DNA from: Eudromia elegans
Taxonomy: Eukaryota > Chordata > Aves > Tinamiformes > Tinamidae
Assembly (NCBI GenBank): GCA_003342815.1
Contig: PTEX01000164.1
Span: 1,155,748-1,219,747, forward strand
DNA length: 64,000 bases
Direction: 5' to 3'
Position numbers and translations under genes: made by a program
Shown here: piece after piece, positions 2,104 through 58,829 of the stretch
Numbering within the stretch: position 1 is the first letter of the stretch
Layout of the letters: every line of letters starts with the position of its first letter
Notes under the pieces: generated by a model
The model's input: only the letters and a program-made list of their open reading frames with translations
The model's database searches: none
Told to the model about the DNA's origin: nothing

Positions 2104-25679
<23,576 letters not shown>

Positions 25680-28291: not shown

Positions 28292-28297
28292 TTTATT
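28292..28297 (-). terminator. ADIRF-type gene B poly(A) signal
   Basis: TTTATT on the plus strand is AATAAA on the minus strand, 53 bp after the stop codon, giving a very short 3' UTR. Confidence 0.75.
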
Positions 28298-28349: not shown

Positions 28350-28447
28350 TCACTGTCCAAAGCTTTTTCCCCAGGCAGTAGCTTGATTTGCTACGTTCTT
28401 TACAGCTTTCTCGCCACTTTCAGCCACTTTGCAGACTTCATCAATAG
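28350..28447 (-). CDS. ADIRF-type gene B exon 3
   Basis: 98 nt, codes for AIDEVCK... to GKSFGQ and TGA. The acceptor TTTTAAAG follows a long T-rich tract on the minus strand. It shares the QKAID..CK junction motif with gene A. Confidence 0.87.
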
Positions 28448-31400
28448 CTTTAAAACAGAAGGGAAAGGGTGAAAAAGAAGAAAAAAAAAAAAAAAGGTAA
28501 CTGCAGCATGGCTGTAATAGGGCACCTGTGTTAGCAGCAGCAGGTGAAAGGGGACTCTGGGGGGAAACAGGATGGGAGGTGGGAGATACTGAAGAGCTGG
28601 GACAGACGCAGCCTCAGGGCTTTGTGCAGGAGCTAAGGGCCACGAGTGACACCCTGCTTGTGCCCCGGCCTCTGGAGCTGCCGCGAGGCCGTGGGGCCGG
28701 ACGCATCGCTGCCGGGGGCTGGTGGCGTCTGGCAAGACAAGGGGACCGAGGGAGGTGGTGGCAGAGGGGGGACCTGCCCGGGACTGCCCCGCAGGACGTG
28801 GCTGCTGCGGGCGGAAGCACTGGGTACCTTTCTGGCCTGCATCCTTGGCCTGCTCCACTACTTGCTGCACAGCCTGGCCCGCTGTGTTAACTGGAAGTAG
28901 AAAAAGAAGCATAAAAAAAGGAGTCACCTTTATCCTCCCCCAAACTCAGTCGTCGCATTTTAGGAGGGATTCCTAAACATCTCAGTACACAAAGTTCTTC
29001 CTTAAGTGTGGACACCCCAGAGCAGCGGCAGGGAGATGGTGTGAGGGGCTTGGCTGTAGCTCCCACTTCACCTGCATCCTCCAGGTGCACCAGCCATGCG
29101 CACCAGCACCTGCACACTTAGCTCCCTCTCCTAGCGCAAAGAACTTAGGTATTGATTTATTAAGGAGCTAAAGTAGCTCTAAAGGTATGGAGGAAGAGAC
29201 AGCGATGGCAGGAGGAGCATAAATATAAACCTGGCTTAAGTAGAAGAATTTCAGCCCCAGAAGACACTAAAATTGAGTGGTTGGCCTCCAAGAGCTGCGA
29301 TAAGGGAATCCTCACTTGCAAGAGCTGGCCAAAGAAAGTTTTGGGAGAGGGGCCTTCAGTGGAACCCCTCCTGGTGCTATTCGCCCTGCCTCCGGCGAGG
29401 ACCCTGTCCAAGGCGGCTGTTCAGCACCTCAGGCTCCCCATGAGGCGGTCGGGAGCGTCGCACAAGCGGCCGATGCTCAAGGCAGACCCCACTCCAGCGG
29501 CAGGGAGCGGCTAAAGCCTCTCAGGCCCCCGGGCTCGAGTCAAAGGGCTCTTGTACAAGAGCTGTTTCATAAGGGCTGTCTCGTAAGCCTGCTGCATGTT
29601 GTACCATGCATTTGTAAGACACTTTTACAGCTTAGAAAATGCCTTAATTATCATCACGCATCATCTTTTGAAGTAGTTGAGTAATTGGTGAGTGGCATAT
29701 ACTGATCATAAGGCAAGGAAAACGCCACTCCTATTGTTCAGAGGGCTCTCCGGCCTTCCTGGGGCTCTGGGAGAGGTGCTGGGTTCAGACACTTGCAAGG
29801 ACCAGTCGTGCCGCTCTGGACACCGCACGGCTCCGAGGACTGAGCCTCAGGGCACACAGCGCAGCAGCCCAGCAGCAGTCCAGTGACTCTGCGATTCACA
29901 GTGTTGCTCTAGTAAGAGAGCCGGGCTAAATCCTGTGCTTGAATTGAAACAGGATTTGGGGTCACCCACATGCACGGCACAGCCCGTGAGTGTGCCACAC
30001 GGGACGCACAGTCATACGCATCCAGCAGCACGTGCTGATTATTAATGTGCAAATCCTATGGGCAGCACACAGGAGCATGTGGGAAGCCTCCTGCTTGTTT
30101 CTGTTACTCCTGGAAAGGGAAGAGATGCCAAGGACCAGGCCCTGGTCACGCAGGGATGGCAGAGACCGTCACCGGTACCTCGCGTCCCCTCATGCGCTGC
30201 GGGCAGGGAGAGCCGGGGGGGGCACCGCAGCCAGGCCGGCTCCACGTGCCCAGCAGGAGGAACAAGGTCTGCAAGGGGGCCGGCCACGCCCAAAGCGCGG
30301 CCCAGGCGGCTGCGCGCCGAGGGGGCTGCGCGGCTCCCTCAGGTGACCAGCGGCACTTCCAAAACCCACAGGTGATCCACCAGCACGGGAAACTACCCGC
30401 CATGTTCCCCAACGTGAGGGATACAGGAGACTCCACAGAAGACAACTTTGCAGGGCTGTACATCAACACAGCCAAGAGCGCTTATAAAGACTCGTTACAA
30501 AATAACATCAAAAAGTGATCACACGCAACTGCTGGAGGCTGGTTGTTTGGGTATCCTCCAAGGTTCAGCATAAGGGTGATTAATTTAGGAATCCACTTTG
30601 GAAATGGGAATAGTGCAGGTGTGGTCTGGGGGCTTTCATCTTTCCAGCCAAGAGTAACCATAAACAAGCAGGAGCCTTTGGCTCATCGCATCACGTGCTG
30701 CTGGGAGGATTTGCACATGGGGAAAGGGTGGAACACAAACAAAAGGGCAAGCAGGTGCCAGCAGGCATCTCGGCAGCGACGTTTCTGCTGTGTCCGAGGT
30801 CACACAAATACCCGGTTTCATGAGGTAACCTACAAGTTGTGTAAAGGAACAGGAGACACTGTCTCAGCTGCTCCTGCCTTACACAAGGCACGGGATGTTT
30901 CGGGCACAGCATCAGTTAAACAAGTCTGTTTGGGTTAGGGCTTCCTCAGCAGTGGCTCCTCGCAGGGACATGTTATTTAACCCCAGCAGATTCCCAGAGC
31001 GCCTCGGAGGCGAAGCCCCATGATCGTGCAAGGGCTTTCAGTGGGACAAGCAGCTCCAAGAACAGGCTGGGGCAAACTGGAGCGACCGCGCAGGTTGAGG
31101 GGCCAGACGGGCTCAGAGCTTCGGGGAGCTCGTTACACAAGTGCTCAGAATGACCTTGGCTGCCCCAACATACAGCTTTGTACTTCATGTGCATTTTATC
31201 TCTGTGTATAGCCAAGCGGGGATGTATCCAGAAGCACCTCCAGGCTCCCCTCTCAGCTTTTCAGGGCCCTCTGCTCCCTTCCATGCGTCTTCCAGCCGCT
31301 CACACATACAAGCCGGGGCGCCATGGGAAGCTGCTAGCCAGCGTTAGTTCCCCCTGTGCTGCATCACTGCAGGGGGTCGGCCTCGCCCAGCGCACGGGCC

Positions 31401-31597
31401 ACAGCAGGGGGGCTGCAGAGCAGAGCTCGGCACGGGCGCCGCCTGCCCCGGTGTGCGGGGCCGAGCACAGCGCGGGTGCTGGGGAGGCTGAGCAGGACGC
31501 GGCAAGGGGGAGCAGGGCCGCACTCACCGGCCGCCTGCGCGGCTTGCTCCGCTTGCTGCGTGGCTTCCTCGGCGAGCTTCCTCCCGAGGCCGAACAT
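28350..31597 (-). CDS. ADIRF-type gene B, second adipogenesis regulatory factor paralogue (76 aa)
   Basis: Join on the minus strand: 31597-31528, 28890-28828, 28447-28350; 231 nt, 76 codons plus TGA, both introns GT-AG in phase 1. Human ADIRF (APM2) is also 76 aa; it is a small, helix-rich protein of fat cells linked to PPARG and CEBPA expression. The middle exon product (VNTAGQAVQQVVEQAKDAGQK) is very close to the human AAQQVVDQATEAGQK stretch. The N-terminus (MFGLGRKLAEEATQQ) and C-terminus (TAWGKSFGQ) differ from both human ADIRF and gene A at 36698-39210. From residue 8 the chain falls into six 11-residue Ala-rich repeats, predicted amphipathic helix. No signal peptide or membrane segment. 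It has its own TATA box and poly(A) signal and no defects, so it looks functional. Family membership is well supported; function is inferred. Confidence 0.88.
28448..28827 (-). other. ADIRF-type gene B intron 2
   Basis: 380 bp with a 15-A run on the plus strand (about 28481-28496) forming the polypyrimidine tract, and a GC-rich 5' half. No other feature. Confidence 0.8.
28828..28890 (-). CDS. ADIRF-type gene B exon 2
   Basis: 63 nt, phase 1 at both borders, acceptor TTCCAG and donor GTACCC. Same length and phases as exon 2 of gene A, and the part most like human ADIRF. Confidence 0.9.
28891..31527 (-). other. ADIRF-type gene B intron 1
   Basis: 2.6 kb of mixed GC content. It contains a perfect 16-bp palindrome at 29547-29562 and a CpG-rich patch near 30170-30340. 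Open frames here are not recognisable as proteins. Confidence 0.75.
31528..31597 (-). CDS. ADIRF-type gene B exon 1
   Basis: 70 nt, Met plus 22 codons and one base, donor GTGAGT. The start was chosen because it is the only ATG between the TATA box and the donor in this frame, and because the total length then equals the family's 76 aa. CpG-rich. Confidence 0.85.
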
Positions 31598-31673
31598 GGT
31601 GCCTCCGCTCCCTGCTGCGGCGGGCGAGCGGGTCCGAGCCTGCTCCTGCTACGAGGTCCTCCAAAGTGCAGCT

Positions 31674-31681
31674 ATTTTATA
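31674..31681 (-). promoter_or_regulatory. ADIRF-type gene B TATA box
   Basis: TATAAAAT on the minus strand, 77 bp upstream of the ATG, predicting a transcription start near 31647 and a 5' UTR of about 50 nt. Confidence 0.75.
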
Positions 31682-31690
31682 GGCAGAGCC

Positions 31691-31709
31691 CAACTCCTCC
31701 CAGGAGTTG
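31691..31709. promoter_or_regulatory. Perfect inverted repeat next to the TATA box
   Basis: CAACTCCT, three-base spacer CCC, AGGAGTTG. It lies 10 bp upstream of the TATA box of ADIRF-type gene B, the usual place for a dimeric activator site; no factor is assigned. Confidence 0.4.
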
Positions 31710-32223
31710 CAGGGCCAACGCGACCGGGAGCAGGGAAAGCCAGGAGCCCGTGTTGGGTGATTAATACACGATGCACGAAAGGGTGAGGAGACCGTAGCGG
31801 TTGTTGTGTTTTCCTCCCCAGAGGGAGGGCGTGCTCACAGTCGGCACAAGTTTTCCACGGTTTTTGGAACCAAAGCATTGTTTTTCCCATGCCGAGGAGC
31901 TGGAAAGCAGCTCGCATTCCTGGGCTGCCCTCACGAGGCCTCTGTGGCGGGAGCGGGTCCAGCAGCATGGCCCATCCTGACCCGGCCGCCGGCATCATGG
32001 CCCGAAACGCGCAGCTGCAGCCTTGCCCAAGCGTTTCAAAACCTTACATAGGAAAACATCCCCTTTCGGGGCATTCTTGCCCAAACTGTTTTTTGTCCCA
32101 GGCAGACTTAAAGTTTGTAGTTAAAAAAAGAACTGGGAGGAGTTCACCCTCCTCCTCCTTCCAGCCACCAAGCAAGGCTGACAGCGCGTTGCCTGCAGGC
32201 AGCCAACTCTGCACGAGCCTGCG

Positions 32224-32611
32224 TGCATTTAACCCCACACGTGCGTGCGCAACGAGGCGGGTCCTGCCCTTCCCTTCCCATGCTGAGCCCGACGCGCGCG
32301 TTTAACCCCACACGCGTGGGACGAGGTGGGTCCTGCCCTTCCCTTCCCATGCCGAGCCAGACGCAGTTTAACCCCACCGTTTAACCCTACGTGTGCAGGA
32401 CGAGGCGGGTCTTGCCCTTCCCATGCTGAGCCCGACGCGCATTTAACCCCGCACGTGCGGGATGAGGCGGGTCCTGCCCTTCGCATCTTGAGCCAGAGCC
32501 TGACGCGCATTTAACCCCACGTGTGTGGGACCAGGCGGGTCCTGCCCTTCCCATGCCGAGCTCAACGTGCGTTTAACCCCGCACGTGCGGGACGAGGCAG
32601 GTCCTGCTCTT
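32224..32611. repeat. GC-rich minisatellite, 62-73-bp unit, about 6 copies
   Basis: TTTAACCC landmarks occur at 32228, 32301, 32367, 32380, 32442, 32510 and 32572, giving spacings of 73, 66, 13, 62, 68 and 62 bp. Each unit then reads a CACGTG- or ACGCGT-type palindromic core, GGACGAGGCGGGTCCTGCCC, and CCCATGC(T/C)GAGC. The last copy is partial. Copies differ by several substitutions and small indels, so the array is not very recent. It lies 0.6 kb upstream of ADIRF-type gene B. Confidence 0.9.
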
Positions 32612-32919
32612 GCCCTCAAAGCAACAGCTCCAGGCCATGTACAGGTCCCAGCAGCCATCAGGGCCAGCCCGTCACCAATAACGGGGTACTCGGCAAGGAG
32701 CTGCTCGCACCGCAGCCCTCCCAGTTGCCCGCACTCCTTATCCCTCCCGCACGTCACGTCCCAGCAAGGCTCTGCTGTGTGAGGGACGTGCAGGCTGCCT
32801 CCTGGCAGAGGACTCATGCACACCCTCTCCTCCTGCCTTTGGGGAGCACGAGAGCAAGGAGACCCCTCCCTATCCCAGTCTGTGCACACCAGGGCTGACA
32901 GCAGCTTCCCCTCCCACTC

Positions 32920-32959
32920 AAGAAGTGTGACCTGTGGAAAGCCACAGGTCACTCTTCTT
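32920..32959. repeat. Near-perfect inverted repeat, 18-bp arms, 4-nt loop
   Basis: Arms 32920-32937 and 32942-32959 pair at 17 of 18 positions (mismatch 32926/32953) around the loop AAAG. Each arm holds a nuclear-receptor half-site, TGACCT at 32928-32933 and AGGTCA at 32946-32951. It is shorter than a usual pre-miRNA. Confidence 0.85.
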
Positions 32960-34275
32960 CCAGCCTTTGGGTTTCCAATTGGCCACAAAGTCCTGCTCTG
33001 CATCAGCCCAATGCAACGCAGGCCTGGGGGGCCACAAGGGCTGCTTTACACTGTTTTGCCTTCTGACAGAAGAGGAGAGCTGCTCACTGTTTTTTAAAGC
33101 AAACTATTCCATGTACAGGCAAGAGAAAAAAGGAGGGATGTTGGTTTTCAGCTGGAGCCCTACTCAGTGTGGAGCCCTGAGCAGCTGACAATGTCTGAAA
33201 GAGACCAAAGGTGCAGCAGGAACACGCTGTGCTCCCTCACAGGCCACAGAACAAGCCCTGCCCTGGGAAAAGCAGCAGCAGGGGCCAACCTGCAGCATCC
33301 CACAGTGCTGTTCCCTGCCCCATGCACTGGGATGCTCCTGGGAAGCAGCCACTTCTGTGTCCCACATCCCCCACATTTCTTGGGTACCCACACAACCCAT
33401 GTGGGAAGCCAAGGAACACAGTCAGGTCACACACACAGCAGCATGCTCTGGATACCCACTGGGATGTAAAGCTGGCACTGACACAGCTGGGACGAGGCCC
33501 CCATGCACAGAAGAGACAGCGCTTACCCCAGAGAAGCCACATCATCAAAACACACTACATTACACTACATGAAAATACACCTTGCAAGAATAATAAACAT
33601 CTCAATTCAGACACTATATAGACAACAAGCACAAAAAACAGCTGAAAATACTCATAGGTTTGCAGATACCAGGGATTTAACAACACACAGATAGTGCAGT
33701 CCTGACCCTAATCCCAAGGAAATACAAAAAAAAGGCAGGAGAATCACCCCTTTCCTACCTGCTGCCATGGCTGAAGAGGACAATGAAGGTGAAGGCACAA
33801 ATGAGACAGTGCTGGACCCTGGGGACTCTCCTCACGGGCTGTTTTGTGGCCCCCAGACCAGCCCAGGTGCAGGCAGCTACTGCACCACCTGCCCCCACCT
33901 CAGCCTGCCTCGTTACAGCCCATGGGGTGCAGCTGCTGCCCACAGTGCCCTGAAGAGAGCAGGCACTAATGGGGACATGCTGTGGCAGGTTTGGGGGTGG
34001 GTGCTGCTGTCCCTAGTGTTGGGGGGGAAAAGCAGGGGAGGGGGGTGTCAGCATGTTCTAACCCATCACCCCAGTTCATGGAACCAGAGTGGCTGGCTTG
34101 TTTTGTGTCTCTGCAGCTCACTGTGCAGCAGTAGCAAATGTGGGGTTTACGCCCTGTCCTGCTTTCCCTGGAAGCTCCTTCTGGACTCTTAAACATGAGG
34201 GTTAGAAAATCCCAACAGAAAAGCTGCAACTGCCCTGAGCAGGTCACAGGGTTATAGTGGAAGGGAACAAGAGAG

Positions 34276-34813
34276 TTAGGGGCAGTCACTGAGGAGGGAG
34301 CAGGCGCCGCTCTCAGGCGCAGGCGGTGGGACGAGGTCCGGGCAGGCAGCTGCCCACCAGGGGCAGCGAGAGGGGAGGCGGGCGGCCGTGCGGGCCGTGC
34401 GTGCGTGTACGCGTTCCGGGCCCGCCGCGTCGTTCCGGCAGCGCTGCGGGTGCGCGGCTGGGGCTCCGAGCGCCCCAGGAACCACGGGGGCAGGTGAAAA
34501 CGTGCCGAAGGGTTCAGATTGCCTCTGCTGCGGGGAAGGCTCTGCAGGCTGCATAATTACGGGTCTAATAGTAGAGAATTTGGGGAAAATTCCTCAAAGT
34601 AGTGGACTCGGCTCTGTAGTTTTATCACTGAAAATGATGGGCTCTGCCTCACTCTGGTGTTAGTGTCAGCAGCAGCAAGGGCGCAGTCTTGAGGAAACGC
34701 TGCAGGCCGCCGTGGGGCAGCGCCGTGCGGAGCCGCTGCGAGTGGATGACCCGGGCAGCGCCGCGGCCACCTCGGAGCGGGCGCTGAGGGGCAGCGCTGG
34801 CCTCGCCTGTGGA
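34276..34813. other. CpG-rich blocks without a recognised gene
   Basis: Two CpG-dense patches (34300-34500 and 34690-34810). On the minus strand the second follows an acceptor-like TTTTTCCACAG (34824-34814). No protein family was recognised in any frame, so this could be an orphan CpG island or an unrecognised exon. Confidence 0.35.
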
Positions 34814-36255
34814 AAAACACATCTGTCAGGTCTTTAGCAATGTGCACCGAGAAATGCTCTCAAACAAACAAATAAAATAACAAAGAGAACATGTTGCAAT
34901 GCCCAGTGTATAAACCACCCCCTCCCATCCACCGGACGGCAGCGACAGATGCGACAGCCGAGTCTGAAATTCCTGGCCTCAGGGATTCGGCCGCTGGGGG
35001 TTCAACCATCTGGGAAGTAACCATGGAAAGTACTAAATAATTAAGTACTATTGAGTGCTGCCCAGTAACTGAGAGTGCAATAGTGTAGTGCTTTTTCCTT
35101 GAGCTTGTACTTGGGTAAATATTTAGGCTTTTAAAGCTTTAAATGAGAGTGGGCATTGCATCGGGACACTCTGTGCAGAGCCCTGTACGATGTTTGCTCA
35201 TGGATGATGTGTTACGGATAGGCTCCTCTAAGGGCTTTCAGTCCGCGCGGCCCTCGTGCCCGTTGCAGACGGCAGCGCTCTCCGGGTTCAGCAGGGAGCT
35301 GGGCTGCCCCGGGACACGTTAACACCAATTAGTACATGCCAAAAATCCCAAAAAACAGGTCCACATCTCTTGGCCAAGAGGTGCAAAACAGCAATACTTA
35401 ATGTTGGCCTGGATTGCCCCACCTCACTACATCCCCTCATTTGGGGCTATTTTTTGGTCTTCCTTTCGCAAGACCCAGATTAACTTTTTATTGAGAGCTG
35501 GCTGGGCAGGCTTTGAAGCAGAAGATAAAAGGGCAGCATTGCCTAGCAATGAGAACTGTGCAGAGGCAGAGCAGGGAGCACTTAGGAGCGAGTGGGTGTT
35601 AGTGCCCTTTGTTGACAGAGGCAGCCCGAACCGGCCGCCTGTTTGTCTGCAGCCGGGCTCCGATTGCCAGCAAGCAGCAGCCTAACACCAACATTGCCAT
35701 CCCCTCGGCAAGAAGCTTGTCCCTTCCCGCTCCGGCACAGACGCTGCCCCGAGCGCCTCTGCAAGCGCGGAGCTGCTGCCTTGAGCACCCATGAGCAGCA
35801 GCCAGAGCCCTCAGCTCAGGCATCGCTCAAGAAACTCGGGGAAAGCTGCACCGTTCTATCTAGCAGCAGGGGCTATAGGGCGTGCTCAGGGCTACTTCTG
35901 CAGGGGTGTGTCACAGGGGCTCCTTTTGTTCCCATGGGATTTAACATGAGCTTTCCTGTGGCCCAGAGCAGCAAGAAACCCGGAGTGGGGACAGATGTGT
36001 CGGAAGGGATGAGGGGATGGACGCCCACGTCTCATTCGTTTCCAGGTGGCAGGGCCAGCACGGGGCTGCTCCTTTCCACACACCTCACTATGCTAAACAT
36101 TCTCCTTGTTCACCCACCTTACCAGCCCCGTTGGACTGTGAATGGAAAGCAGAGGCTTGCAAGGCCTTGTGAGATCCTTTGGTGAAGGCTGCAACACGAG
36201 TCCCTAACAAGGAGCTATAGCCAGTGCTGGGGAGGGAAGAAATATTGCTATAATT

Positions 36256-36261
36256 TTTATT
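36256..36261 (-). terminator. ADIRF gene A poly(A) signal
   Basis: AATAAA on the minus strand, about 440 bp after the stop codon; it defines the likely 3' UTR 36697-36240. Confidence 0.7.
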
Positions 36262-36697
36262 TAACACAGAAAAACAACATAATGGAACAAATGAACCAGT
36301 GACATGAAATACAACACTAACCAATTTTGATTGCTGAAAGAAAGCGGGGTTTCATAATATGAAAGTCCTGGTATGCTGAAATATTACTAGTTTCGGTATT
36401 TCTGTAAGCTCACACTGGACGAATGTGGCAATAATCCCTGTGCTGTTGAAAGAGCAGGGCAATAACAGTGCTTAGGACTTCTGATCCATTTTGAAGAGAA
36501 CATTATGAACAGACGAAGCAAGATGTGCTAAAACATGTATTCTTCCTACGGGAAGAATGAGGGGGGCATTCTGCATTCAAATATTGTATTTGGAGAAGAT
36601 TATCCGTATCTCAAACAGCTTTCATTTTTCTACACAAAGGCATAGGGAATTGCAGAACAAAGATGCCTTTTACATACAGCACTGTTTGCTTAAAGTA

Positions 36698-36804
36698 TCA
36701 CTTCTTAAATCCACACTTTTTCCCCAAGCCAGAGATGGCTTCTGCAGCTTGTCCAGTGGCTTTTTCTACACCATCTTGAGCTGTCTTGCAAGCCTGATCA
36801 ATAG
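36698..36804 (-). CDS. ADIRF: ADIRF gene A exon 3
   Basis: 107 nt, residues 42-76 and TGA; acceptor TTTCAG. The tail GLGKKCGFKK is basic like the human one. Confidence 0.92.
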
Positions 36805-39210
36805 CTGAAAGAGAGGGAGAAATTAATCAGATAAGCCAAAAACCTGAAAAATGCCACATGGTTTAGTATTTATGACGGAAAGGGGAGGTGTGAAAGAGTT
36901 TAGAGTCTCCCTATACAGGCATACGGTTCAAGGGAGGTTCTTCCCCACTGCTTATTGCTCCGTAGGAGTGGTTCCTTGGGAGCACCGGGCGATGCCTCGA
37001 GGCGCCGCTGGACGGGCAGTGGGACAAGGCTGACGAGGACACCGGTGCTCAGGCGGCCGGCGGGGCGAGCGCGGGCAGCGCGTACAGGAGGGCGCTCGGG
37101 GCTCAGGCAGGGCTGGGCGGGACGGCGGCACCTCCCACGCCGCGAGGCGGGCCGAGCCCCCGGCTCCGCTCTGCCCTGCGCGCCGGCCTGTGCATCTGAG
37201 GCACGGGCACGCTGAGGCACAGTTTAGACCCCCTCATTCCTAGAAAATGATTAAAATGGAGCGAGAACTGAACTGAGCTCTTAATTTAACCTGCCAGTTT
37301 GCTGTCGTCAGAAATGAAATGCCAAAGCTTCCTTCACAGGAAGCTTTCCTTCACTCTTTATAGCTTCCAGCATCATTAATTTTTGACCTCAGCTGCTGCC
37401 TCAGCAGACACATAGGGTGGACAGGGGGTTGAAGCTGGTGGACTCCTGCCCTCGGAGCTGGAGCAATCAAGATATAGCACATGTTTACTTCCTCTTCACG
37501 AACGAAGAGCAACGTTTTGCCCACCCTGTTCCAAGAGCCCGTCCCTACAGGAGGCCGAGACCTGAGCGTGATGCGGAGCACGCTGCGTGGGGTGCGCCGG
37601 GGAGGTCGGCTACTGAGCTGGCCAGGAAAGCCAGGGAGCAACTGCGATCAGATCCCGACCTCCCTTCCCACGAGGCTCATGCAAGGCCAAAGACCACCAC
37701 TAAAACCCGCGCACATTCAGCACAAGAACACGCAAGAGAGAAGGGGGAAAGCAGAACCGCGGCTGTTGCGGCTGTGTGCATTCAGTTGCTCGAGCTCTTG
37801 CTCATTCGAGTGTAATTTCTCATACCTTTCTGGCTTGCATCCGTAACCTGGTTGACTGCATCCTGAGCAGCCTGTCCAAAAGTGTTTGCTGTAGTTAAAG
37901 ACAAAAAAAATCCATTTTCATCTGTTCACAGTTATGCTCTCCTTCCCTCTGACTCTGTTCACAGGCTGTAAACTCCTGTGAATCCCTCTTGCCACCAGGC
38001 CTCCCATGCGGGCTGGGGCCGTGCACTTTGCTCCTGGGCCCCGTGAGGCAGGCGTGCTGCCGGAGCAGGCACGCTGCGGAGAGCCGAGCGTTTGCGTAGC
38101 CCTGCAGCCAGCCGGGGACACCGCTGACAGGGAGCAAGACGGGAAGAAAGCAGGAGGGAGATGCGGAAGCAAGGATCAGCAGACAGTTTTAATACTGGCA
38201 TATGGCTGCAGATTGCTTGTTTTATCCTACACTTGCCATTACTGACTTATAATAGCTTCTTCTGTTGGGAGATGTTTACCCACGCCTTGGCAGGTCATTG
38301 GGAATCAGTGTGCTTTCCAAAAGGGAGGAAAATACACTAAACAGAATAGGACAGAAAATGAGAGCTTTTACAAAGAAGATCTAAATAGATGTTCAGAGAA
38401 AGACAAGCCAAAACTGCAATGGATCAACTCCAGAATATCAAGTACTAAAAAGAGTGAAGTGACACTTCAAACATGAGATGTCTCATATTTATGAGGACAA
38501 GATGGTCACTCCATTGCTTTTGCTAGAGGAGGAGCTCTGTGGTGACCCCTCAACGGCATGAACACATTCAGCATGGAACAAGAAACATTTTGGTTTACAA
38601 ACAAAATTGCTGTCATGTCCTGGGTCTAATACATTTTTGGTTCTAGATGCGCAGAAAATTGCAGCAACGCCAAAGAATCCATGAGTTTGGATGCCCCCAA
38701 CCTCCAGACACACAGAGCAAAGAGCTGTTGCTTGGGGAGCTATCAGGGTTGAGCTACGTCCAGCGAGCAGTGAACAAGCTCTGCGTGGGCCAAGGTGAAG
38801 GCGGCTGCTGAGCCCAGGTTGGTGGCAAGATGGGGGCCTTGGTCCTCGCTGGGGTCTTTCCTGGGCAGAGGGACCCACGGCTCCAGGATGGGTGGAAGAG
38901 CAGAAGCTGCTCCTGGCAGCACTGAGGGGACCCATGGAGGCAGGGGATGGCTGCAGGAGGCACCGTGTGCAAGGGGGGCCACAGGGGCTGCCCCCAAACG
39001 TCCTTCATCAAGAGTTGTATTCTGCAGCCGCTGCTAACTGGAGATAAAAAGCCCCACTCAAGTTAGGGTTACTGCAGATTTTGCTCTGTGGCAGCAAAAG
39101 CACCAGCCAACCCCCCTAAGCATATCCAAGGCTGTTCAACCTTTCTTACCAGCATCCTTGGCTGCACCTTCTGCCTGTTGCTTCAGTCCCTGGAAGCTCC
39201 TACTGGACAT
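36698..39210 (-). CDS. ADIRF: ADIRF, adipogenesis regulatory factor (gene A, 76 aa)
   Basis: Join on the minus strand: 39210-39150, 37888-37826, 36804-36698; 231 nt, 76 codons plus TGA, GT-AG introns in phase 1. The product matches human ADIRF in length, in its N-terminus (MSSRSFQGLKQQAEGAA against human MASKGLQDLKQQVEGTA) and in its C-terminus (SGLGKKCGFKK against SGIGKKFGLLK), so this is the likely orthologue. Residues 16-70 divide exactly into five 11-residue repeats with Ala, Ser or Gln near the front, Ala or Gly at position 5 and Ala, Val or Ile at position 6, a pattern of an extended amphipathic helix. Human ADIRF is a small cytosolic and nuclear protein of adipose tissue linked to adipogenic transcription. 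It lies between SNCG and a second ADIRF-type gene, all minus strand, as SNCG and ADIRF are co-oriented in human. Confidence 0.92.
36805..37825 (-). other. ADIRF gene A intron 2
   Basis: 1.0 kb. About 36980-37200 is a CpG-rich block with chance open frames on both strands. No other feature. Confidence 0.8.
37826..37888 (-). CDS. ADIRF: ADIRF gene A exon 2
   Basis: 63 nt, residues 21-41 (ANTFGQAAQDAVNQ and following), phase 1 borders, acceptor CTACAG, donor GTATGA. Confidence 0.92.
37889..39149 (-). other. ADIRF gene A intron 1
   Basis: 1.26 kb with mixed base composition. No repeat, extra exon or RNA gene recognised. Confidence 0.8.
39150..39210 (-). CDS. ADIRF: ADIRF gene A exon 1
   Basis: 61 nt, residues 1-20 and one base, donor GTAAGA. 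The ATG follows the TATA box by about 100 bp and gives the human-like N-terminus. Confidence 0.92.
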
Positions 39211-39308: not shown

Positions 39309-39311
39309 TTT

Positions 39312-39319
39312 ATACAGAT
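39312..39319 (-). promoter_or_regulatory. ADIRF gene A TATA box
   Basis: TATAAAAG on the minus strand, 102 bp upstream of the ATG. Predicted start near 39285 and 5' UTR of about 75 nt. A strong TATA fits a regulated, tissue-restricted gene. Confidence 0.8.
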
Positions 39320-50600: not shown

Positions 50601-53600
50601 GGCCCGGTGGGCAGGAGCCATGCGGGGAGGCAGCGCCGCGTTCCTCCTTTCAGGCCTCTGCCCTTGGCAGCAGGGACAGGCTGGGAGCAGATCACTGCCG
50701 TGGTGCCACCCGAAAGCCATCCAGCCCATGCACTTGGGGACCTCTCTCTGCTGGGACCCGCACTATGGCGAGCAACCATGACTGGAAGATTTTCATTCCT
50801 CATCTAAACTACATCACTAAGTCACAGGGCCCCTCTTGGTCACTGACACAAACATTTTACCTTAACTCCTTTCTTCTCTAACTTATTTTTGCTTTGCTTT
50901 TCTCCTCCTGTATTCAGTCTGCTCCTCACCTCTGCTTTTTGACATTACCCCATGACATCGTAGCTAAAGCAGCTTCCTGGCTCCCCCCATTAGTCTGTCA
51001 TTCGGCATAGGACACATCCCACATTTTTTTTCTTCTTGACCAATCCCCATTTTAACTTTATGCGGGCTGACACTTTAAGGCGATGCCAGAGTGACCCCTC
51101 AGAGGCTCCCACCCCGTAACACTCCAGAAAACCTGCAGCTCCCGGGATGCGGCGTGCATAATGCAGAGACGCTCCCAGGGCGAGGGAAGAGCTGATTTTC
51201 TACAGGACTCTGCACAGGGGCAGACACAGACAAAGCAGATGAGCTACCGGTGTGCACTTACCACCACCGCCACGTTTTAGCTCATTAGTCCTTGAGCGGG
51301 GGCTTGCACTTGGGCCTAAAGGGCAAGGGCACTGCTGCTGCTCCCCCGTCTGCAGTGGGGACGGGTCCGCCGAGGGCTGATGGGTTCCCACCGTCCCCAC
51401 ATTCCCAGCTTCCCTGGGAGAGTCACCCTGGAGACCGAGTATGGCAAAAGGTACAAGAGGGTAGAGCCTGGCCCCACTGAACGCGAAGTCACTGTTTGCA
51501 CTTCTGCAGCCTCGCTGTGGCAATAAAGATTAATCTTATCCCAAGGGCTTAGCAGGTCTCCTGTGTCTGTCCTTTTCACATGTTTCCAAGAGGACATTTT
51601 GCGTCACTCGTAGCTGCCTTTCTCCTCCTTTGTTAGCCTGTTCTCCCAGGATTTGTGCGGCGCGCAGAAGTTTTGTTTCTCATCACAATGTGCTCACTGT
51701 TAGGTCAGGAAATTCATCAGCCAACTGTCTGAACAACTAAAAAAAATTGGCCAGCCTCACTTGGCTGTGATTCTGGGTTTGGGCTGTGACTAAGGCAGGT
51801 TATGTCACTATCAGCTCTATTGACTATGGGCCTATAAAAGCCACAAAAATCCCCCCTCTAAAAAGGCCATAAAAGACTCCCCTCTAAAGCGGAGATAAAA
51901 AACAAGTTTATCAAAGAACTGCCAAATATTTACCACTAGAATAGCCTCATGCCCTGTACAAAGGGTTTACATTTGCTATCACATGGTGAAAATACCTTGT
52001 GTAACAACCAGTTTTGCTTTCAGCCAAGGAGTTGCTCTGCTTCTCTACATGTCCCTTCATCCACTAAGCTGAACCCATTCAGTTTGGCACATTGCATTCA
52101 AGGACAGAAGATGCCTTGTTTGAATCTGGCTTTCTCAGTGCATAATCTGAGTCACATGCCCTTTATCAGAAGATGCTTAGATGTTGTCCAAATCAGCCCA
52201 AATAGAAGACGAGGATCAAGCTCTTTGGAGCCTTCTATGGGACCACGCTCTTCAGAGCCGTGCCGGGTTGTCTTAGTTAATGCTGCCATCTACTGCTCAC
52301 AAAACTGATGGTCCTGGTTGGGAGATGGGTCTGCATCAACCCAGGGTTGGGATCAGTACAGTGCGTAGATGGTAAATACAGAATTTCAAAACATACCTCA
52401 AAGCTCTGTACTGTAAAGACACCAAGTGAGGACATAACCACCAACCTCCCTCCCTTTCTTTTTTTCCCATGTCTCAACACATTCAGTAGCTCTGTTTCCT
52501 GACAGAATTCTCATTGCAGTCTTGTTCTGCATATATTCAAGTCCATGAAAAAATTGTGTTTTTACATTATTTTAAAGTATAAAAATATTTTCCACCCTGA
52601 AAAATGGCTACAAGACAAAAGATAAAGTCCTCCAAATAAAAATGCAAATCATTAAGATCTTGATACAACCTTGTCTTGATGGATATAAAGGCACGCTGTC
52701 CTTTACATTTTGAGGAAATTCACATCTGGAGTTAGATGCAAATCAGTTTGGAAAGCAAAAGCCCCTAATTTTTTAAGACTTCTCAGAATTTTAAAGCTTA
52801 AAAATAACTCTAAGAATAGTCTATTTTCTTTCCTTGAACAATATTGCCTTTAAATATGAACAAAATCATTTATTAAAAAGTCTTCAAAATTAGAAAATAT
52901 TATTAAAATTCTTTTGGAAAGGAAGACTAAGATGCATTGGTTGGATGGCACATTATCATAACTGGATTTGAATTCAGGTACTACTGCTGTGGAGTCCTGC
53001 CAAGCAAAATGTAGCTGGAGACGGCATGTCGTTCCACAAAATTTCCATGAGATGAAGATCTCTAAATGCACATCATAGCTCTGGATGTCCAATGATTTTG
53101 GTAGGGGCTAGGAGGAAGAAGACCCACCTCCGAGGTAGCAATCAACAATATTTCACACCAGATTTCAGTGAATATTGTAAGTGGTGGGCTCTGGATGCCA
53201 AGTCCATTTTGAAAATGTTTGATACCTAGAATCTCATCCTGTTTCTGAATAGTTTTATTTACTGCCATATCCACACAGCAAACATCAAGAGACAGTGCTA
53301 TTACCTTTAACCGTAGCTGATATTAAACATCCTATAGTAGACGTTCTACAACAGTAGATATTGTTGAAATCCTCTCATTAAATAGGTAAAACGAACAACT
53401 CTTAACAACATTGCCAGCTATTCTAAGCTGCGCGATCCAAACGAGAGTTTTCTGCAGGCTGCTAAAGAAACAAACATACCTTTTTTACAACTCCTGTAGT
53501 GGCCACAATGGTCTCTGCTCCTTCTACAGTCTTGTTTGCCACTGTGTTCACACTGGCTACTACCGCTTCTCCCACAACGTTGGCCTGCTCTTTGGTCTTC

Positions 53601-56600
53601 TCAGCAACTAGGATATCAACAAGACATACTCAGTTAACCTGGTACTGTGAACAGGTTGCCAAATTAACTGGGACAATAAAATGATTGCACCAAGCTAAGA
53701 GAAGAAATGGACTCGGGGTTAGGCCTCTTTTGGATTTGCTGTATGATAGCACATCTGAATTTAGATTCTGTGTGTGAGGGTTTCATCTCACACAAAATGC
53801 TATCCAGGGGAACATGGACATTGCAGCTTGTCAGTCCTCACGGGCAACTGGAGACTGCAAAATCCAATGCAAGATGCTAAGAGACTATCATGCAAAGAAA
53901 GCATTTTGTAAGATAGACCGTGCGTGGCCTCTCCCCATGTACCTTCTAAGTGTATAGATTTGTGCAAAAAATAATTAATTCTGTCATGAAATTACCTAGA
54001 GAAAGGGATCTGTTCCTATCAGTTCAAGCCAGTCCCAGGTGTACCTGCCTTGGGCCTTGTGGACCCCAGAAGAGTCCCACAGGACCTGACTCTGTGACTG
54101 GCTGGCAGGAGGTTCCTAAAAGCTAAGGTTTTAGCCCAGCAGGAACTGACACAAGCACAAGGAGAGCCTCTCTGCACTCTGGACAGCACTCCTGACACTG
54201 TGAGCTGAATCGCTATGAGTCAGCAGCGCCCACCAAATAATATTTGTTAGGGGTTTTTTGACCTGCTCCACTGATTAAATATTTTCTCCCATCCACGCGC
54301 ACTGCAGATGCCAGACCCTGACCCTTTGCTCCTGGCAAGCATCCTCCATTCACCAGGTGAAGCTCACGTGGAGCAGCGCTGCCTCCAAGAGAGCTCCAGT
54401 GCGGCAGGAACGATGCCCTCGTCAGGAGGTTCAACAGCACCACCACCAAGGATTGCCCCATGGCTCGCAGGGAGCGTTGCCTCTTACCTGAGGTCACACT
54501 GTGCACTACGCCCTCCTTGGTTTTGGCACCTGTGAAAGGAAGCAGAGAGGGTGTCAGCGCGCGCCAGCGAGGAGCACGCGCGTCTCTGCCCCCGGTGGCT
54601 TTTGTCCTTATGAGGGGTGCTGGGAATACGTCCAGAGTGCATTGCCCAGAGATACCCCAACTTGATAAATCCTGAGGATGGCATGTTTGAGTAAGAAAGA
54701 CTGTCCCTTGGATATTTCTAAAATGAGAACCACCGCTGAGCAGAAATAAAACAGTGTCGGGTTAATTGAATGCATATTAAATGACCAAGTAAAATCTCGC
54801 TTATTTCAACCTTTCAAAACATGATTCACCTCAGCGATGCCCTCCTGCCTCTCAGCGGGTCATTGGCCACTGTACTCAGAACTAGACAAATTCATCTCTG
54901 TCAAAAGCTAACAAAATTTTAAGGTTTCCCTTTGATGGTTCCACCTCACTGTATTTGTAAATCATCCACACCTACACAACCTATTTGCAAGTTTTCATAC
55001 CAACACAAAAAACAAACAACAACAGCCAGACATATTTTATGGCCAGCTTTCAAAATGACAGAAACACGGAATCAGTCAGGTACAGATGCACTGCAGCATC
55101 CGTGGGGGAAGTTAGTCACGAACCACACCTAATTTTCATTAAAAGCCTAAAAAGCAAAACAAGTGCAGCACTCTGATAACGGCTGATAGGGTGGAACAGA
55201 GCTGTGCTCCTACAACACACCCTACACATTTCATTCTATCATCCTGCGCTGTGCAACCTGGAGAGATGAAATCTTTGTGGTTTTGGTTACAGCTATAAGC
55301 TGGGCTTAGGAATGATGCACTGGACATGGTGTGTACTGCTGTAAACTGGGTTTCAAGATGATGCTTGTAGGCGTGTGCACAGCAGCACGTGAGCAGGCAG
55401 ACCAGATGTGCATCTCATCATTGCCACGAATGCAGGTCCCAGCATTGCCCAAATGCACAAAGTCCAGTTGAGACGTGAAGCAGCTTTAACTCCTCCCCTT
55501 CTCCCACAGCACTGATGTGACGTGCCCGGCCGCCTCACGCCACACACAGAGGTTCACGTTCAGCCCTTCTTTGCTGCTTTTTGCTCCAAGAGCAATTCTA
55601 AGGCAAATTAAATATACAGTTTATTGTCCAGGATTCACATCTTTTCACTTTGCAGTTAACATTCTGAGACAAAAAGTATACTTACACCCCAGATACGTTT
55701 TTTTAGTGGGCTTTTTATCTAAGATTTCCCTCTGGACTTGCTTCTTTTGCAGGGGAGTGTTTTTAAAATGAAAAATAATTCCAGAAGGGAGGGATGCCCG
55801 TCCAAGAGAGCCCTTTCCTGCATTGCTTTCAGGACGGACGGGGAGCAGGGGCAGCAGCAGCAGCAGCGCGGCTGCGTGCCGCCCAGTGCAGCTCGCCTCC
55901 TCTCCCTAACGCACTCCCACACCACACCCCATGACTCAGGCTCCCGCATCCCCTGCGCCCGGGGCCTTCCCGCACATCCCTCGCCTGCCTCCAGCAGCAG
56001 TTGCACAGGGAAGCCACCACCCCAGCTCCATCCCCACTGCTCATCAGCCTTTGCCCACGGCCACCACATGCGCAATTAAGTGTTCCTCTGTCCTGCCCCT
56101 TCTGCAAAAGGGGTGTCCAAGGGCTGCGCAGGGTCCGTGAGAGCTCTGCATCAGTATCTGAGGCGGGGCGAGGTGGTGGGGCTCTGTGCACGGGGCAAGG
56201 CTGTGCTAGACACCACTCTAACGCTGTGCACTGGCCTTGCGGGAGCGGTGCTGGGGTCGCTTCTCGAGCAGGGCCGGGTGCGCTGGGGCTTTCTGCAACA
56301 CATGTGACAGCAAGGGAGGCTGTGGGGACTCTTAGGCAGGGTGGCATTAACCTCATCATCACTCATCCCCGTCTTTAAACCACATAAAACAGCACAACAG
56401 AATTACCTGCTGAATACACATTGCTTGTGCAAGAAATCCACTGCACTTTCTGCATAGCCAGGGCAGCTCTAGACTGGAGAGCAGTCTGTGTTTTCACCAG
56501 GAGCACCAGTGGTCCTGCTGCAGCATTTCTCCTGCTCTCGCCCCCTTTCCATGCACCCTCACCTCTCCCCTGGGCCCTCAGCAAACCACCCAGGGGACAC

Positions 56601-58829
56601 CCCATGCCCACGGACACCCTCGGAGGTGGCAGCCCCTCGGACCAGCCCAGCTGAACCGCATTGCACTGTTAGCACAGGGAGAGGCAGCCCAGGCTGTGGG
56701 ACCCAAGGTGCCTAGCTCAGGGAGCAGAAGAAAGGAGAGGCAGCAGCAGAGCCCCCATGGCCCCGTCTGCTCCAGGGGGATGCCTCAGCAGGAGCACTTA
56801 CATCCTGGGGTTGCAGTGAGTGACTCACCAGGTTGGGTGGTCACGCTGGCCCTCGGGAGCCCTCCTAAAGCCTTTGGGGTGGTCAGCAAGGAGTTAATGC
56901 AGCTGATGATAAAAGTGAAGGATCCTCTTGACCCTTCTTAGGTTTAGAGTCTGTTTGTCACCTCCACCCCTGCCCTTTCCAACTCCCCAAAGAGACTCCC
57001 AAGCTTCAATGCAAGTCTTATTTTCTCCTAGCACAAGAAAATGCAGATTGCTTCACCTAACACCCAGATCAACCTTCCTGGGAAGGGTTATCCAAAGGAG
57101 GAAGCAGTGAAAGTTCTTTAATTAGCACCTTGTATGGCAAAGATTGAGGAGCAGTGACTCAGACAACATACTAACCATTGCAACTTTAATGATTAAACCT
57201 CATTTCCACCTTCCCTGCTTATTTAACATCAGTTCCGTGAGGCCATCAGCATCTGGCCCTCACTTTCCTTTCTGTGAAAGGCTGAACGTTCCCCAAAGGG
57301 CTGAGCGTCCCTGCAGCACGCAGGAGAACGTGAGCATCACGCAGAATCAGCCTGCCTTCAATTTGATCCCCATTTGGTAATTTAGGTTTTACAAAGGCTT
57401 TCAGGAAAGTTTGCTGAAAAGAGCAGAGCATGAGGAGATTCTGCTTCACCTCACAAGATGAAAAACAGGTCACAGGCTGAAGACGCAAAACGCTACTGAA
57501 AAGTGAGGGGAGAAATCACATATAAAAACTCTGAACGATCCCCTCCAACACTGCTTAAATCAGGAAGCAGCTGGGGCAGCAGCAACGCCACCATGCGACA
57601 CCCACACGTGACGTTTCACAGGCTGGTGTTTCAGACAGTGCTGTTGGTGGAATTATTTCCAGGGAGGCTGCTTACGTTTTCGCTTGTGAGTCAGCTCTAA
57701 ACTGCACTGTGAGCTATTATACACCACAAAGAGCACGTTCCGTTACAGCATGCCGATGAAATTTGGGGATGAACACATTATCAGATCTGCTAAACACAAC
57801 ATTTGTGTTCATTTATAATTCAAAAATGTGCTGTCTGTAGTTATCACTCACATAGATGTTAATAAATATTGTAAGCATGACGGCAAGAAGCACTTATCTG
57901 GAAACTTTCTGACTGAAAATAAAAACCCCTTACCCATATTTAGCAGACACAAAAAGCTGTAAAAGATGCAGTCATCAATATCCAGCTAATTATCTGGGGA
58001 ATCTAAGACGTTATAGAGCCTACAGTATCTAGAGTATCTGACTGCCCAGCCATATAGTTGCATGCACTAGAGAGGGAAGATCCCAGGTTTCAAGAGCAAC
58101 CCTGAAACAGGGAGTTTCTGAGAAAAAAAAATTGAGAGAGATTTCTATACAGGATACAACACATGTTGTTTTCCTTTGTGCAAAATGAATATAGGTGTCT
58201 CTTGTAAAGCAAAATTAACATGTGCACGGGGAACAAAACAGGTCAGTGAGCAGGAGGAGGAGGAGGTTAGGACCAAATGGTAAGTCTGGGGAGAACAGGA
58301 ATGTCCTACAAGCCCACTGAATAACAGCGTTCATCCCCGCCTGGGCTCTCGCTCACTGTGCTTCTGACAGCGCTGAGGTGAAAAGCAGATCATCAGTGCT
58401 CAGTGTTGAGTCTGAAAGCAAGCAGTGAATAATCATAAAAGAAACCTGCCACCAGAGCACCTGCTTGTTCCTATTACATTATTGCTGCCTCCCACAAAGT
58501 ACCGTTGGTTGCTACTTCTCATCTGCAGTTGAGGAAACTGCGCAAGCCGGGGGTATTGCAGAGAGGCTGGGGCACCCCAGGCTTACACAGCAAATCTGCA
58601 ATAGAGCTCAGGACATGACACAGACCCCTAAAATTTTGGCAGACTTTCTCAAAGAAAACCTATGTGGCAGTTCATGCAGAGATAGTAATGGAAATAGTTC
58701 TCTCTTACCTACGTACATCACACCCTCCTTGGTCTTCTCTGCAGCCTCCGTCACCCCCTGCTTGGTCTTTTCCGCAGCAGCCACAACACCTTCCTTAGCA
58801 ATGGAGAAACCTTTCTTAAAGACATCCAT
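44649..58829 (-). CDS. SNCG: SNCG, gamma-synuclein (5 exons, 128 aa)
   Basis: Join on the minus strand: 58829-58709, 54529-54488, 53607-53480, 45799-45725, 44669-44649; 387 nt, 128 codons plus TAA, all introns GT-AG. Human SNCG is 127 aa, and its first two coding exons have the same lengths (121 and 42 nt). The N-terminus [16 protein letters not shown] is diagnostic of gamma- over alpha- and beta-synuclein. KTKxGV-type 11-residue repeats run through residues 10-65, followed by the hydrophobic middle ([15 protein letters not shown]). This part binds acidic phospholipid vesicles as an amphipathic helix. The C-tail (98-128) is Pro/Gly/Ala-rich with seven acidic residues and no lysine, much less charged than the human tail. 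Human SNCG is cytosolic, in peripheral neurons, retinal ganglion cells and fat. Confidence 0.96.
44670..45724 (-). other. SNCG intron 4 with a 9-bp tandem repeat
   Basis: 1.06 kb. It includes four 9-bp units at 44751-44786 and a CpG-rich block at about 44920-45070. No exon recognised. Confidence 0.8.
44751..44786. repeat. 9-bp tandem repeat, 4 units (TATAACTGT type)
   Basis: Units TATAACTGC, TATAACTGT, TATAACTGT, TATAACAGT in a row inside SNCG intron 4, 82 bp before the last exon. Confidence 0.85.
45725..45799 (-). CDS. SNCG: SNCG coding exon 4 (GC-rich tail exon)
   Basis: 75 nt, residues 98-122, opening with EDL as in other gamma-synucleins, then PPEQPG and Ala/Gly-rich sequence. Acceptor TTGGCAG, donor GTAAGT, phase 0. 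Its GC content is far above that of the other exons. Confidence 0.92.
45800..53479 (-). other. SNCG intron 3 (7.7 kb)
   Basis: Contains GC-rich blocks at about 47420-47960, 48400-48720 and 50480-50760, an alternating purine-pyrimidine tract at 49457-49484, and a 26-bp imperfect tandem dimer at 51853-51904. Long open frames in the GC blocks (up to 249 codons, 48120-48869 minus) resemble nothing known and are probably chance. Confidence 0.75.
51853..51904. repeat. Imperfect 26-bp tandem dimer after a TATA-like box
   Basis: Two copies starting CCCCTCTAAA (51853 and 51879), agreeing at about three quarters of positions. A plus-strand TATAAAAG lies at 51833-51840. No transcript evidence. Confidence 0.5.
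53480..53607 (-). CDS. SNCG: SNCG coding exon 3
   Basis: 128 nt, residues 55-97: [17 protein letters not shown] repeat segment and the hydrophobic middle to GVVKK. Acceptor CCTAG, donor GTATGT. Confidence 0.96.
53608..54487 (-). other. SNCG intron 2
   Basis: 880 bp, no feature recognised beyond its splice sites. Confidence 0.85.
54488..54529 (-). CDS. SNCG: SNCG coding exon 2
   Basis: 42 nt, residues 41-54, [14 protein letters not shown]. Same size as human. The repeat reads KTKEGV, where human gamma-synuclein has KTKENV. Confidence 0.96.
54530..58708 (-). other. SNCG intron 1
   Basis: 4.2 kb, AT-rich with a GC-rich block near 55800-56300 whose open frames are unrecognised. No mobile element recognised. 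Confidence 0.8.
58709..58829 (-). CDS. SNCG: SNCG coding exon 1
   Basis: 121 nt, residues 1-40 and one base, ending MYVG across the junction; donor GTAAGA. The start is set by the invariant [14 protein letters not shown], although the frame stays open upstream to an ATG at 58994. Confidence 0.96.

Follow-up and report, generated by a model that had tools for sequence, protein, structure and literature searches.

An ADIRF gene and a probable FAM25 ortholog in tandem between GLUD1 and SNCG in Eudromia elegans

Two three-exon genes between GLUD1 and SNCG

We analyzed a 64,000-nt stretch of the Eudromia elegans genome, referred to here as the window (C73:1155748-1219747, in a genome of 944 Mb and 723 contigs). 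Two genes, A and B, lie within it on the minus strand between GLUD1 and SNCG, the two neighbors having been located with human query sequences. Each gene has three coding exons that splice to 231 nt (76 codons and a stop), a middle exon of 63 nt and two phase 1 introns with GT...AG ends, and each is accompanied by a TATAAA and an AATAAA sequence. These are the properties listed in the original prediction of two intact minus-strand genes, and their coordinates were re-derived exactly. The features are as follows.

2104..25676, plus strand: GLUD1, neighbor (extent of protein matches)
28292..28297, minus strand: AATAAA of gene B
28350..28447, minus strand: gene B (FAM25, best reading), exon 3, coding part with stop, 98 nt
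28828..28890, minus strand: gene B (FAM25, best reading), exon 2, 63 nt
31528..31597, minus strand: gene B (FAM25, best reading), coding exon 1, 70 nt
31676..31681, minus strand: TATAAA of gene B
36256..36261, minus strand: AATAAA of gene A
36698..36804, minus strand: gene A (ADIRF), exon 3, coding part with stop, 107 nt
37826..37888, minus strand: gene A (ADIRF), exon 2, 63 nt
39150..39210, minus strand: gene A (ADIRF), coding exon 1, 61 nt
39309..39314, minus strand: TATAAA of gene A
53480..58829, minus strand: SNCG, neighbor (extent of matches to the first 97 residues)

Since full-length relatives of both products exist in other birds (best E 4.9e-30 for B and 1.2e-32 for A), the two genes are more than chance; for A as for B, the nearest database matches are bird proteins. 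A search of the genome with B returned three matches, all of them the exons of B itself in the window, and thus no further B copy elsewhere in the genome; tblastn of A and B gave no convincing third copy in the window. A GC-rich tandem repeat (32393-32616, unit ~62 bp, 3.4 copies, 76% matches) lies ~0.8-1.0 kb upstream of the gene B start codon. Between ADIRF and SNCG, the segment 47424-48869 has open frames on either strand that overlap and are 113-249 codons long; they probably are not genes. A PPARG-type DR1 site at the A and B promoters was considered and rejected, as the window holds four matches with at most two mismatches against 5.6 expected; the nearest DR1-like match is ~1.3 kb upstream of the gene B start codon.

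Relationship of the two genes to ADIRF and FAM25

By sequence comparison, we identify gene A as avian ADIRF (adipogenesis regulatory factor, APM2, C10orf116). A protein search with A gave 22 matches, 15 of which are named adipogenesis regulatory factor or -like, four 'uncharacterized' and three unnamed. For phylogenetic analysis, we built an unrooted tree of 42 rows and 79 columns from the two window proteins, two human proteins and 38 database proteins. The latter were picked from 126 as full-length representatives, with the other 88 omitted as fragments, near-duplicates, odd gene models or surplus, and the comparison sequences came from birds, squamates and mammals, with no turtle, crocodile, amphibian or fish among them. 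In this tree, gene A falls into one cluster (support 100/97) with mammalian ADIRF and with that of two lizards and other birds, which agrees with its earlier designation as ADIRF-type. Bird and lizard A also were closer to mammalian ADIRF in each exon when mean global exon scores were compared, and gene A scored 16.1 bits against the Pfam FAM25 profile (PF15825, length 65), below the gathering cut-off of 27 bits.

Gene B scored 34.1 bits against PF15825, above the cut-off, with a match that covers only positions 1-47 of the 65 and leaves positions 48-65 unmatched. Five other sauropsid B-type proteins scored 29.1-36.9 bits, and four other ADIRF-type proteins, one of them human, scored 13.6-18.8 bits. 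At E<=1e-5, the profile was matched by 16 of the 20 B/FAM25 alignment rows (17 sauropsid and 3 mammalian; 4 failed) and by none of the 20 ADIRF rows. B, FAM25 and ADIRF have in common a middle exon of 21 residues that ends in GQK or GEK and is followed by the residue A, the mammalian limits of this exon having been deduced from the read-through fragments P0098, P0079 and P0114.

The position of gene B also was compared. In the window, B sits between GLUD1 and ADIRF on the same strand as ADIRF, and FAM25A lies between ADIRF and GLUD1 in what we take to be the human order, SNCG-ADIRF-AGAP11-FAM25A-GLUD1. Two reports name these genes together: one gives SNCG, MMRN2, ADIRF, AGAP11 and FAM25A as candidate targets of a single lncRNA, without showing their order (PMC5354744), and the other lists AGAP11, C10orf116, FAM25A, GLUD1 and SNCG in one 10q region alphabetically, so the list does not show their order (PMC10093755). 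Gene B is most likely the sauropsid ortholog of FAM25, a gene that mammals also have, and strict orthology is our inference. That the pair A and B corresponds to bird ADIRF and bird FAM25 is a reading in which we have considerable confidence.

An eleven-residue helical period in A and B

The helical hydrophobic moment at 98.2 degrees, corresponding to 11 residues in three turns, was not equaled by any of 5000 shuffles, either for A or for B, and B can be written out as seven lines of 11 residues, with 10 in the last. In human FAM25A, exon 3 exceeds that of B by 12 residues and that of A by 9, with a gap of 11 or 12 columns in alignments, and the Podarcis lilfordi ADIRF is shorter by 11 residues, possibly because of a gene-model fault. 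Relative to A and FAM25, B lacks one residue near position 55. AlphaFold models, both of low confidence, gave a single helix for condor B (residues 3-74, mean pLDDT 56, pTM 0.24) and for emu A (residues 4-71, mean pLDDT 70, pTM 0.30).

We suggest that A and B each would form a single long helix, amphipathic and with a period of 11 residues (~3.67 residues per turn). The 11-residue period, the single helices in the AlphaFold models and the disorder predicted for human ADIRF in one study (PMC9692912) led us to the idea that both proteins may be disordered in solution and fold at a lipid surface, for example that of a droplet or a membrane. Whether A and B bind lipid, as the periodicity would suggest, we judge to be evenly balanced. 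Mean spectra of six groups of sequences have their peak in the range 96-99 degrees, close to the 11/3 value; a heptad coiled coil would give 102.9 degrees. This counts against a different proposal, that A and B act not on lipid surfaces but on other proteins, either through pairing of helices or as co-factors in transcription, in keeping with the name ADIRF. That proposal is a possible one, though we would not favor it; it draws on the comparison of B with solved structures, in which the best match was a protein called THR2 (E 1.2e-4), followed by coiled coils and designed helices, with no functional lead, and on the tabulation of ADIRF as a 'transcription factor' in the same study (PMC9692912).

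If the two proteins do act as helices on lipid surfaces, their sites of action may differ. In the mouse, Fam25c is a marker of differentiated squamous cells of the cervix (PMC7878191) and of the superficial urothelium, where it requires PPARG (PMC12045629). By analogy, FAM25 of birds would act in differentiating epithelia. ADIRF is expressed in fat and muscle-type tissue, where bird ADIRF would then act.

Age and spread of the gene pair

Each of six groups forms one side of a branch in the 42-row tree, and the branch that separates avian, lizard and mammalian ADIRF from sauropsid B plus mammalian FAM25 has the support of 100/97 given above; three variant trees, likewise unrooted, recovered the split between ADIRF and B/FAM25 at 99/96.8, 98/96.6 and 100/98.1. 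In the best trees of all four runs of the topology tests, B lay outside the ADIRF of birds and mammals, with alternatives not excluded by every AU test. A bird-only group of A and B was rejected (p 0.0005). A sauropsid group of A and B could not be rejected from the full set of rows (p 0.115), after removal of the short Podarcis ADIRF row (p 0.141) or under a simpler model (p 0.074), and was rejected in the one of the four runs in which echidna was the sole FAM25 (p 0.031). A group of sauropsid B with mammalian ADIRF was not rejected (p 0.204). Because the tree is unrooted and has only 79 columns, synteny and the exon plan bear part of the argument.

We also compared B with the mammalian proteins exon by exon, using mean global alignment scores for bird B and lizard B against mammalian FAM25 and mammalian ADIRF. 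For exon 1, bird B scored 29.6 against FAM25 and 24.6 against ADIRF, and lizard B, here closer to ADIRF, 2.8 and 13.3. The corresponding scores were 44.5 and 57.8 (bird B) and 36.0 and 65.8 (lizard B) for exon 2, and 30.4 and 40.4 (bird B) and 34.8 and 36.9 (lizard B) for exon 3. Against echidna FAM25 alone, exons 1, 2 and 3 scored 27.5, 59.6 and 43.1 for bird B and 7.2, 59.3 and 44.4 for lizard B. The raw identity of B is 41% to human ADIRF and 37% to human FAM25A. Given these mixed exon scores and nearly equal identities, simple similarity leaves the place of B unsettled. In our reading of these sequences, therian FAM25 is the derived member, with B nearer to the common form. The alignments agree with the original description of B as matching ADIRF best in the middle exon and differing at both ends. 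They speak against the accompanying idea that these ends are newly made, since the start MFGLGRKLAEE and the end GQ of B resemble the start MLGGLGKLAAEG and the end GQ of FAM25, and exon 1 of bird B, though not of lizard B, scored higher with FAM25 than with ADIRF.

A different history would make B a sauropsid duplicate of ADIRF, or else an old third lineage that mammals have lost, with mammalian FAM25 having arisen separately in the same place. The three-group tree is unrooted, three of the four AU runs did not reject the sauropsid group of A and B, raw identity is about equal to the two families, and mammalian ADIRF gives the higher scores for exons 2 and 3, all of which leave room for this history. 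Yet it requires two separate duplications that reached one slot with one exon plan, the best tree of each run keeps the ADIRF of all three classes separate from B, the sauropsid group of A and B was rejected in the echidna run and the bird-only group in its own test, and B is above the PF15825 cut-off; we thus regard it as unlikely. The related proposal with which the locus was first described, that B is an undescribed sauropsid-specific paralog, came from a comparison that omitted FAM25 and is not supported by the same profile score and trees. With B as FAM25, the duplication that gave ADIRF and FAM25 most likely predates the amniotes, and the order SNCG-ADIRF-FAM25-GLUD1 would represent an old tandem pair, older than the split of birds, squamates and mammals.

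Among the matches listed, B-type proteins came from 12 named birds and from 13 squamates (eight and four in the first search, with four and nine more in the second), which shows B to be shared across birds and squamates. A and B types occur on equally long contigs in Rhea, Nyctibius, Melanerpes and Hemicordylus, and from the equal lengths we read the two as being on the same chromosome in each. Between birds (the window and three birds), identity is 80-91% for B and 78-87% for A; to the lizard Hemicordylus, compared with the same four, it is 47-60% for B and 58-62% for A; and within one species (the window and four species), A and B are 41-47% identical. That B is a functionless copy, silent or in decay, is very improbable given its intact exons, splice sites, TATA box and AATAAA, its conservation between birds at about the level of A, and its full-length relatives in birds and squamates, though for the last databases favor intact frames. 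Ducks and fowl account for none of the 12 named B-type birds and for 3 of the 19 named A-type birds among the matches listed, a difference that may be due to sampling; Galloanserae may have lost B, or it may be missing there from the assemblies or from the sample.

As the genes already are in public annotation, what is new is their assignment to FAM25, within a known family. The name adipogenesis regulatory factor or -like is carried by 17 of the 25 named B-type records (6 of 12 birds and 11 of 13 squamates), and the precomputed FAM25 label is missing from three of the 25 (P0006, P0071 and P0082). A horse record named 'Synuclein gamma' (P0077) ends in ADIRF sequence and looks like a read-through or a naming fault. 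Literature searches on FAM25A, FAM25C and ADIRF gave no title or abstract opening on FAM25 in birds or reptiles among the matches listed. If the assignment is true, labels would need correction, with the 'adipogenesis regulatory factor(-like)' genes of birds and squamates being of two kinds, and what is reported as ADIRF expression in birds may stem from either A or B. A table of the chicken pituitary, for instance, gives ADIRF at 1.7-2.2 FPKM, and the excerpt does not state which gene is meant (PMC5148799).

A more far-reaching reading, which we hold to be possible but less likely than not, is that ADIRF and FAM25 form one amniote family of lipid-surface-binding helices built of 11-residue units, which would change in length by whole units and would have divided fat and epithelial roles before the amniote radiation. 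The assignment of B to FAM25 would itself link two poorly understood families and give them a testable biochemical idea.

The neighboring gamma-synuclein resembles A and B in its 11-residue helix period, and, as in ADIRF and B, a phase 1 intron follows each of its first two coding exons, which are 121 and 42 nt long. A common origin with SNCG is unsupported: register-preserving shuffles of the window SNCG scored as high as SNCG itself in 21 of 60 cases with the B/FAM25 profile and in 12 of 60 with the ADIRF profile, and full shuffles did so in 2 of 60 and 4 of 60, respectively. These profile scores thus indicate no sequence similarity between A or B and the synucleins beyond the common 11-residue register. 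With ADIRF, B shares the exon plan, the 76-residue length, the 11-residue period and a large part of the middle exon, but its two ends are different and the best trees place it outside the ADIRF group. With FAM25, B differs in length, being 76 residues here and 83-88 in the listed squamates, which have a charged tail, compared with 89 in the human protein, whose exon 3 is longer by the 12 residues noted above. We take the longer exon 3 to be a mammalian trait and not one that defines FAM25; if it is taken as defining, B is FAM25-like. What B shares with FAM25 is the PF15825 score above the cut-off, the 21-residue middle exon, the 11-residue amphipathic period, the slot between GLUD1 and ADIRF (given the human order that we assume) and, for bird B, the M-[LF]-G start and the GQ end.
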